64,000 bases of DNA from an uncultured Opitutia bacterium (GTDB lineage: Bacteria > Verrucomicrobiota > Verrucomicrobiia > Opitutales > Opitutaceae), in assembly GCA_903862955.1 (NCBI GenBank), contig CAIPAH010000022.1:186001-250000 (forward strand). Direction: 5' to 3'. A program made the position numbers and the translations under genes. This document shows, piece after piece, positions 53,138 to 55,921 of this stretch (positions are counted from its first letter, which is position 1; each line of letters begins with the position of its first letter). The notes below the pieces were generated by a model. It was not told where the DNA came from. It was given only the letters and a program-made list of their open reading frames with translations, and did not search any database.

Positions 53138-53791
53138 ATGAAAATCACCTATTACCTGGAGGTCCTTTCATCGTGGTGCACTTGGGTCGAGCCGACGTGG
53201 GATGCGCTCAAGGCGCGTTATGCGGGCCGCGTGGAATTTGAGTGGAAGATCGCGCTGATGAATCCGGGCGATTTTCCCGTCTCGCGCGAGCAGTGCGACT
53301 GGTTCTACCGGCGCAGCGGCGGGACGGTGATGCGTTCGCCGTTCATGCTCAACTCAGGCTGGTTCGAGGCGTCGCGCAAAGGCGTCTATCACGCGCCGAA
53401 CCTGGTCGCGGAGGCCGGAAAGGATTTTGGCTTCGCCGGCGATGAAATCCGCCGTGCGCTCGCCCATGCGGCGGTGCGCGAAGGGCAGAAAGTCGGCGAC
53501 ATGGCCACGGCCGTGGCAGTCGCCGCGAAGGCCGGCAAGGTCAACGCCCGCAAACTGCGTGCCGCCGCCGAATCGCCTGCGGTCCTCGCGCGCGTCACGG
53601 CGAGCACCAAGGAATTCCATTCCCACCAAATCAACCAGCGCCCCGCCTTCATCCTGACGGACGCGATCGGCGATAAAGCCGTGTTTTCAGGCCTAGTCCG
53701 GCTCGACCCCCTCGCCGCCACGATCGACACCATGCTCAGCGACACGGCCGCCTACGCCGCGCACGCCATTCATCACGGGGTCAGCCCCTAA
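53138..53791 (+). CDS. DsbA-family (2-hydroxychromene-2-carboxylate isomerase-like) oxidoreductase
   Basis: MKITYYLEVLSSWCTWVEPTWDALKARYAGRVEFEWKIALM ... HSHQINQRPAFILTDAIGDKAVFSGL; stop codon lies in the RAYT inverted repeat. Confidence 0.8.
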   Translation: MKITYYLEVLSSWCTWVEPTWDALKARYAGRVEFEWKIALMNPGDFPVSREQCDWFYRRSGGTVMRSPFMLNSGWFEASRKGVYHAPNLVAEAGKDFGFAGDEIRRALAHAAVREGQKVGDMATAVAVAAKAGKVNARKLRAAAESPAVLARVTASTKEFHSHQINQRPAFILTDAIGDKAVFSGLVRLDPLAATIDTMLSDTAAYAAHAIHHGVSP

Positions 53792-54826
53792 CTTTTGTAG
53801 TTAACTTATTCACTAGATATTGGCTGGCAATATTTTGTCCACCTACCGTTTCGCTGACGTAGCGACTCACGGCGTCCGGGGCGCCCATGTGGAGTTTCTC
53901 GGTCAGCCAGCGGTTGGTGACACTGCTGCGCTGTTTCAGCCAGGTCGCGATCGCGATTTTCCACGGCGCTGATTTCAGTGCCAACTTGGGATTCTCTTTT
54001 TGGCGGCTCAAGGCGCGCAATCCCGCCTCCAACAATCGTTGCCATTCCAAGCGGTTGAGCTCCACGAGATCTCCCGCGCCCCAGTCCTCGGCTTTGGTCA
54101 TGCGCTTGAATTCCACGAGCATCTGCTTCTGGAATTCCTCGCCACCGTAAACCCAGCCCTGGCTCATCCGGTCAAACGCCGCTTCCTTCAAGCGCACGTC
54201 GTCCGCCATGAGCCACACCAATTGATCGTGATAAGAGCGCCAGCCGGCGGGCGAATCCGGCAAGCCGCCCGTCGCCTGCAGCCAGTCTTCGCACGTGAGA
54301 AACGCGGGACGCTCGCCGCGATCGCGCAAAAAATGCCGGTAGCTCGACCAGCGGAATTGCCCGAGCTGCTCGAGCGAAACGACATGGGCGCGAGCCGGAT
54401 TGAGGTGAATGTAATTCACCAATTGCGCCAGATGCCGGCCGCGCTCAACCAGGATGGCTTGGTAGCGTCCCTGAAACGCGTGGCCATGCTCGCCGCGAAA
54501 GCGATTGAAGCGGTTGCCAAACGTGCTCTGCAGCCAGTGCACGCCGCTCACGAGATTTCCGCGCGGGGTCTCCACCGCCAGGTGATAGTGGTTTCGCATC
54601 ACGCAGAACGCGTGCAGCCGCCATCCCATCCGCTCGCACGCTTCGAAGAGGCAGTCCACAAACGCCTGCGCCGCACCGGCCGAATCGAAGAGGTCCGACC
54701 GGTAATTCCCGCGGTTCAGCACGTGGTAAATCGCACCGGCGAACTCGATGCGGGGTTTGCGTGCCACGATGCCAAATCACCACCCAAACAAGGTGGGTTC
54801 AACTACAAAAGTTAGGGGCTGACCCC
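53777..54826 (-). mobile_element. RAYT / IS200-like element bounded by a perfect 26-bp inverted repeat
   Basis: ggggtcagcccctaacttttgtagtt (53777-53802) and its exact reverse complement aactacaaaagttaggggctgacccc (54801-54826) flank the transposase. Confidence 0.85.
53781..54767 (-). CDS. REP-associated tyrosine transposase (Y1_Tnp), GTG start
   Basis: ARKPRIEFAGAIYHVLNRGNYRSDLF ... LHAFCVMRNHYHLAVETPRGNLVSGVHWLQSTFGNRFNRFRGEHGHAFQGRYQAILVE ... LAQLVNYIHLNPARA: HxH nucleophile-region and RAYT motifs. Confidence 0.92.
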   Translation of the reverse strand: MARKPRIEFAGAIYHVLNRGNYRSDLFDSAGAAQAFVDCLFEACERMGWRLHAFCVMRNHYHLAVETPRGNLVSGVHWLQSTFGNRFNRFRGEHGHAFQGRYQAILVERGRHLAQLVNYIHLNPARAHVVSLEQLGQFRWSSYRHFLRDRGERPAFLTCEDWLQATGGLPDSPAGWRSYHDQLVWLMADDVRLKEAAFDRMSQGWVYGGEEFQKQMLVEFKRMTKAEDWGAGDLVELNRLEWQRLLEAGLRALSRQKENPKLALKSAPWKIAIATWLKQRSSVTNRWLTEKLHMGAPDAVSRYVSETVGGQNIASQYLVNKLTTKVRG

Positions 54827-54831
54827 GTTAG

Positions 54832-55755
54832 TTAGGGGCTGGCACTGTGGCCGCGGTATTTCTTTTCACCAGCGGTGACGGCTAGGGGGAGCTTGTTCTC
54901 TTTCGGCGGGAGGGGGCAGGTGGCGAAGGAGGTGAAGGCACACGGGGGGTTCTGGGCTTTGTTGAAATCGAGCACCACTTTGCCGTCCACGGCCGGCGCG
55001 GCATACAGAAACCGCGCTGCCGCATAGGTTTGGTCACCACTGGTCTGATCCGAGATCACAAAGAAAAGCACCCCATCCGGGTCTTCCTGGATCGGCAGGA
55101 GCTCATACGTGTGCCCGTCTCGCGTAAAAACGGCCTTACCGAGGATCATCGCCGGCGCCACGCTGCCCAGGATGTTCGCGATCGGCACCTCCTTCGGTTT
55201 GTCGAACGCGACCCAGTCAGCCTCAATCCGCCAGCTGGGATCGATCGGGAAATAATCGATGCCGAGGAAATGCGTGCGCGTTGCCGCGTCACTGTCTTTC
55301 ACCCGCAGCGCCCGTTTGCCGTCCCGATCGATGACATACAGGCTCACCGTTCCCACCGTCACCATCGTCGGCCGGCCCCGTTGATCGTCGCGCAGGGTCG
55401 CGGCCAGTACCGGCTGGCCATCCACCTTGATCTCCGTCCCCGGGTTGAACATCACGTGCACCGTTCCGTTGTCCGCCAAATTGAACACCCCGAGGTGCGC
55501 CGGCCCCTTGGCCAGTACCACCGCATTGTCCGGCGCCGTGCCCACGGTGTTTTCGCCCGTTTTTAGGAAATGCAGCCCGATCAAGCTCAGCCAGCCGTCC
55601 GGCTTCGTCAGTTGCTGTACGCGTTGCGTCCGCCACGCCTCGATCTCCGCCGTGTACGGATCCTTCGCCACCTCCGTCTTCGCAACCTCCGCCGCGATCA
55701 AACTCACCGCCAGCAGGCCGCCGACCAACCACCTGAAAAATTTCGCGATCTTCAT
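54832..55755 (-). CDS. DUF1684 domain-containing protein
   Basis: [50 protein letters not shown] ... [38 protein letters not shown]. Confidence 0.88.
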
Positions 55756-55921
55756 GGCCGCCCATTCTACGCAGGCGCGTTCGCGTCGCCAGCCCGGAAC
55801 AGCCTTAAATTTTTCGCCTTTCATCCCCGCCCCACCCCGCTCGCCGTCTTCCGGTTCACCGTTTCCCAACAACTTTCAGCGCGGGCTTTCACTTCGCGCC
55901 GATCCGCGCTACGCTGCCGGC

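Follow-up and report, generated by a model that had tools for sequence, protein, structure and literature searches.

A Y1 transposase between inverted repeats occupies the same intergenic site in seven genomes of one Opitutaceae genus

Results

Organization of the locus

The window, a stretch of 64,000 nucleotides from an uncultured Opitutia bacterium, contains a Y1/HUH transposase gene bracketed by two perfect inverted repeats of 26 bp. The left, transposase-downstream repeat, GGGGTCAGCCCCTAACTTTTGTAGTT (equal to ggggtcagcccctaacttttgtagtt), lies at positions 53777–53802 on the forward strand, and the right, transposase-upstream repeat at 54801–54826, on the reverse strand, is its exact reverse complement. 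Almost all of the space between the two ends is occupied by the transposase gene (53781–54767, reverse strand), which starts with GTG and encodes 328 aa. The element is flanked on the left by a DsbA-like gene of the thioredoxin fold (53138–53791, forward strand; Pfam DSBA), whose start was set at the earliest ATG within the conserved region, near 53138, and on the right by a DUF1684 gene (54832–55872, reverse strand; Pfam DUF1684). Only these two genes are mutually convergent; the transposase is co-oriented with DUF1684. Outside the right repeat, the repeat core recurs in degenerate form and direct orientation as gttagttaggggctggcactg (54827–54847, forward strand).

The repeats carry stop codons of the surrounding genes. 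The DsbA-like open reading frame ends with HHGVSP and a TAA at 53789–53791, within the left repeat. The TGA of the transposase, the reverse complement of the tca at 53781–53783, lies in the same repeat, and the two frames overlap antisense by 11 bp. DUF1684 ends with GHSASP and a TAA inside the degenerate copy, and in three relatives (G001, G007 and G008) its stop is supplied by the repeat itself (GVSP-TAA). An earlier note on this DNA had described a RAYT-like Y1 transposase between perfect 26-bp ends, with the SP-stop of the DsbA-like gene and the antisense TGA of the transposase in the left end and the SASP-stop of DUF1684 in the degenerate repeat, and this anatomy is confirmed. Its further statement that the element terminates both convergent genes holds for translation, for which stops are supplied, but not for transcription: no intrinsic terminator was predicted at either end of the window's element. 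Inspection of the window flanks by eye revealed no target-site duplication.

A search of the 3.6-Mb genome for the 21-base repeat core gave three exact matches and one with two mismatches, and the reversed pattern gave none. These counts, together with end scores among relatives that far exceed those of mismatched flank pairs (below), indicate that the repeat ends are not chance matches.

The transposase and its family

The protein matches Pfam Y1_Tnp (E 4.1e-12) and, at 56 bits, the NCBIfam model of REP-associated transposases NF047646, whose cutoff of 80 it does not reach. It contains the HUH motif NHYH (residues 59–62), FQ (98–99) and a putative catalytic Tyr119 in YIHLNP. Among 45 aligned sequences, H60 and H62 are invariant and Y119 is near-invariant (at least 90%). 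The AlphaFold model has a mean pLDDT of 86.7, and its best PDB match is E. coli TnpA-REP (4er8; E 3.4e-7). The C-terminal half is helical, with an HTH-like trio (268–280, 285–292 and 297–308) read off the confident model; Pfam HTH_23 was matched in one of the 45 family members, weakly (E 0.018). One full-length copy of the element is present in the genome. Elsewhere the genome encodes a further Y1 transposase of a different type, which is shorter (173 aa) and has a DHVH motif (L022:1306–1827). In the window's taxonomic family, a similar transposase was matched in 189 of 252 genomes.

Di Nocera et al. (2013; PMC3733652) gave the name TIRYT to Y1 transposases that have terminal inverted repeats on both sides, and the name TIRtron to the corresponding elements; they describe a GGGGWSAS motif common to many TIRtron repeats and repeats that can overlap the gene. 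Most TIRYTs were placed by Quentin et al. (2018; PMC6006769) in TnpA-Y1 subclass 2.1, which equals Bertels group 1, has the motifs NH[YF]H, W[EQ] or FQ, and Y[IV]HLNP (Table 1 of that paper); no REP-like structures were found in that study beside the genes of this subclass. Judged by its sequence, the window element is an ordinary member of this already known family, a TIRYT/TIRtron of subclass 2.1. Inverted ends are expected here because GGGGTCAG, present at both ends, fits GGGGWSAS and the protein falls in the TIRYT branch.

Comparison with the known systems places the element more precisely. Like the TIRtrons of PMC3733652, it has a Y1 transposase whose length and signatures set it apart from RAYTs, terminal inverted repeats that carry GGGGWSAS and can overlap gene ends, small dispersed repeat families and dimers; maintenance at one site across a genus by vertical descent, an element-specific inner half matched between the ends and a stop codon in the repeat core are described here and are unreported in the available portion of that paper. 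The NHYH, FQ and YIHLNP motifs and the low copy number are those of subclass 2.1 (PMC6006769), and a C-terminal extension is present here too, possibly of the HTH or Bac_DnaA_C type described for that subclass; the protein has 328 aa against a median of 238 there, and its ends are dispersed at low copy, whereas that study found no REP-like sequences adjoining the genes. E. coli TnpA-REP (4er8; PMC8266576) is alike in its HUH/Y1 core, as the best structural match, and in having small inverted sequences both beside the gene and dispersed; the window protein differs by an extra C-terminal domain, and a hairpin is not general in its family. In contrast to RAYTs with REPs (groups 2 and 3), the GT[AG]G foot is absent, the foot here being GTTA before GGGGCTGACCCC, and in place of a high-copy REP family there are two further copies at no more than two mismatches in 3.6 Mb. 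The HUH/Y1 catalytic core is also shared with IS200/IS605 elements (IS608, ISDra2), from which the element differs by a much longer protein, no tnpB seen adjoining, inverted ends instead of subterminal hairpins and a single resident copy instead of multiple near-identical ones.

Conservation and composition of the ends

For relatives in other genera, the upstream and downstream flanks were compared for inverted repeats, and a score of at least 14 was taken as strong. Strong inverted ends were found in 72 of the 88 relatives whose flanks could be used, and in a control on an earlier set, which paired upstream flanks with the downstream flanks of other elements, 10 of 231 pairs reached 14. Perfect ends of 20–31 bp are common among the relatives. 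The earlier note called such ends unusual for Y1-type elements; in this branch they are not, and besides this count they define the TIRYT group (PMC3733652, PMC6006769).

The outer part of the repeat is nearly fixed. Among 70 relatives with anchored ends, GGGTCA is present in 64 and GGGGTCA in 52. The inner 17 positions show an identity of 0.88 between the two ends of an element, versus 0.38 between elements at 40–50% protein identity, 0.38–0.73 over protein identities of 0.4–0.8, and 0.91 above 80%. Inner ends thus track protein identity (Mantel r 0.44; reached by 0 of 999 permutations). Among the orthologues at the window's site, repeat positions 16 and 22, in a repeat where few positions vary, are suggestive of concerted changes at both ends.

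The GGGG-TCAG-CCCC mini-hairpin, to which the earlier note gave prominence, is invariant in the window's same-site group, but it has a stem of only 4 bp (-3.8 kcal/mol), and its CCCC partner is found in 10 of the 70 elements. As a family-wide recognition feature it was rejected on this count. A second mini-hairpin, AACT/AGTT, in the fold of the window end was not consistently kept in relatives on inspection.

In 62 of the 70 relatives the downstream repeat contains the transposase stop, which in 36 has the same place, in the complement of the GGGGTCA core. The distance between the start codon and the outer G of the upstream end is mostly 52–68 nt. TTGA occurs 22–36 nt from the outer G at 29 of 70 upstream ends and 7 of 70 downstream ends (Fisher p 3e-5). 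In the window, the corresponding TTGAAC box is located at the inner edge of the upstream repeat (54797–54802, reverse strand). This weak pattern makes the box a possible -35 element of the transposase promoter; a promoter consensus scan called no promoter at the box. Upstream repeats are multiplied in some elements: one TIRYT is preceded by two tandem direct copies (GGGGTCAGCCCCTAACCTTTGTGGTTGA) and degenerate ones (L122:560–690), and doubled upstream repeats were also seen at L030, L145 and L177.

Occupancy of one site in the genus and its probable inheritance

The genus was sampled with 12 genomes, mostly draft assemblies. A relative of the transposase is present in nine of them, and in seven (G000, which is the window's genome, G001, G004, G007, G008, G009 and G011) it lies between the DsbA-like gene and DUF1684. 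The same-site proteins are 59–73% identical to that of the window, and the seven copies form one clade in a tree of 91 relatives (SH-aLRT 93). Pairwise dN/dS among them is 0.05–0.21, indicating purifying selection. Their dS is of the same order as that of the neighbouring genes; for G007 and G008 it is 0.13 for the transposase, 0.15 for DsbA and 0.17 for DUF1684. The sequence GGGGTCAGCCCC is kept at all 14 ends of these seven copies, and in G004 the inner repeat has drifted with the 12-bp core intact.

The idea that perfect ends reflect either recent activity or strong selection is retained in its second part, selection on the ends; the old divergence of the same-site copies and their neighbour-like dS speak against the first. 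The earlier note held that its view would fail if no other copies existed and if the same arrangement were conserved across genera with drifted ends. Other copies exist and the core of the ends is undrifted. Sequence comparison demonstrates same-site vertical conservation within one genus only.

The earlier note had proposed to look for empty sites in relatives; the transposase is absent from the DsbA-DUF1684 site in G002, G005, G006 and G010. The intergenic region of G010 is compact (CCC-TGA-CGCG-TCA-CTC), with both convergent genes ending in stops of their own, and G002 has an unrelated gene at the site. The site in G006 (L050) contains GGGCTGACCCC, an 11/12 match to the repeat; a match of this type arose 33 times in 20,000 random GC-rich 60-mers, a rough estimate of chance. 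Because G010 has the partly homologous CTGACGCGTCACTC at its site, GGGCTGACCCC may be ancestral sequence; it is possibly also a scar of a lost right end, or a chance match.

Genus trees were built from neighbouring genes only. The tree from DsbA and DUF1684 alone was mostly unresolved, and the addition of ParE and AKR improved it only in part. In this tree some non-carriers nest among carriers with moderate support (87/99 and 83/91), and loss is therefore favoured at that level of support. The same moderately supported tree would also be compatible with repeated gain at one site. In another genus, G238 (L124:2941–5190) has a different TIRYT between the same DsbA-like and DUF1684 genes, and the site may thus be a hotspot. 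A gene assigned by eye as a Gfo/Idh-like oxidoreductase is located there between the downstream repeat and a third repeat copy that abuts the DsbA stop; the arrangement possibly represents either a hotspot or a repeat-bracketed passenger gene.

Dispersed copies of the end sequence

Copies of the repeat were counted across the genus by pattern searches that allowed at most two mismatches. As the earlier note had anticipated, end copies are found without the transposase: beyond the ends of the element, the window's genome contains a single further exact match to the 21-base core, plus another match with two mismatches. The exact copy lies in a gene of 595 aa (L001:1501–1550), inside an in-frame insertion of 48 bp (16 residues) that is absent from seven orthologues in the genus. 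At no more than one mismatch, the seven carriers have 2, 2, 0, 4, 2, 4 and 2 other copies and the five other genomes 0, 0, 0, 0 and 1 (Mann-Whitney p 0.008, by a test that ignores relatedness among phylogenetically non-independent genomes). Many dispersed copies have ACCACAARRGTTAGGGGCTGACCCC or close variants in common. In G011, two copies form a perfect dimer of 59 bp, 7 bp apart and without a transposase (L198:1453–1511), in the orientation expected from joining a right end to a left end. In G009, a 73-bp pair without a transposase (L197:2329–2401) has the orientation of the full element; this pair and its neighbours have in common a longer unit with TGGCACTTCGCCA.

Discussion

The explanation that we favour, with a probability of about 0.73, is that the element is a TIRtron that resides at this site by vertical inheritance; selection would act on its ends as the sites used by the enzyme that it encodes, and from time to time it would seed small repeats. 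This explanation builds on the anatomy of the element, the orthology and purifying selection of its same-site copies, the conserved ends, the dispersed copies and the in-frame insertion. In this model, a TIRYT, or TIR-associated Y1 tyrosine transposase, which belongs to the HUH-type single-strand endonucleases and has a C-terminal HTH-like domain, lies between copies of its own end sequence. The arrival of the element between DsbA and DUF1684 would date to an ancestor of the genus or earlier, with vertical transmission since then and probably loss in some lineages. Selection would preserve the ends, most likely as sites that the enzyme recognises and nicks in single-stranded form, as has been shown for TnpA-REP relatives (PMC8266576). 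The ends may also serve self-regulation, since the upstream end touches the likely promoter and the downstream end holds the stop codon. The end sequence alone would be copied elsewhere at a low rate, presumably by the enzyme, as is thought for REPs by RAYTs. Gene conversion between the arms could also keep the ends identical.

A wider proposal, which we hold to be doubtful, is that TIRYTs read their ends unlike RAYTs and IS200/IS605 transposases, either through pairing of the long ends or through reading of the duplex by the C-terminal domain; inner halves would consequently diverge between elements and match within them, and the element would be a domesticated, self-regulated unit at a fixed site that seeds rare small repeats. 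Its narrower form, that the ends pair with each other in single strand and the enzyme sees one long stem instead of a hairpin at each end, appears unlikely. The inner sequence would then be free to change provided that both ends change together, which fits the rarity of the per-end hairpin alongside the high end-to-end identity within elements, and the frequent long perfect ends. However, the tracking of protein phylogeny by the inner ends is also predicted by direct recognition, the ends of G004 match at the 12-bp core only, and the window's group keeps a possible hairpin.

It is very improbable that the element is a recently active insertion sequence that newly jumped into the site. Its perfect ends, the element-free site in four relatives and the end copies elsewhere would suit such an event, but the genome has one full-length copy, and the presence of diverged orthologues at the same site in seven genomes, with neighbour-like dS, led us to reject the argument that perfect ends mark a recent transposition. 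The notion that the ends chiefly serve to stop or terminate the convergent genes on either side, with the transposase as a passenger, deserves hardly any credence: flanking stop codons do lie in or near the ends, and inward open reading frames end near the outer edge in 34 of 112 cases versus 11 of 156 at random positions, but insertion between genes alone explains this excess, the flanking genes have stops of their own in relatives that lack the element, no terminator is predicted at the ends and the transposase is under purifying selection.

The resident TIRtron provides useful evidence on how these elements persist, in a TIRYT branch that is large and little studied. Rules that can be tested emerge for the TIRtron group: the outer GGGGTCA is fixed, the inner half is specific to each element and agrees between its two ends, the downstream end holds a stop codon, and the start codon mostly lies 52–68 nt from the outer edge of the upstream end. 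A resident at the same site across a genus that includes both carriers and non-carriers is suited to a test of whether such transposases benefit their host.
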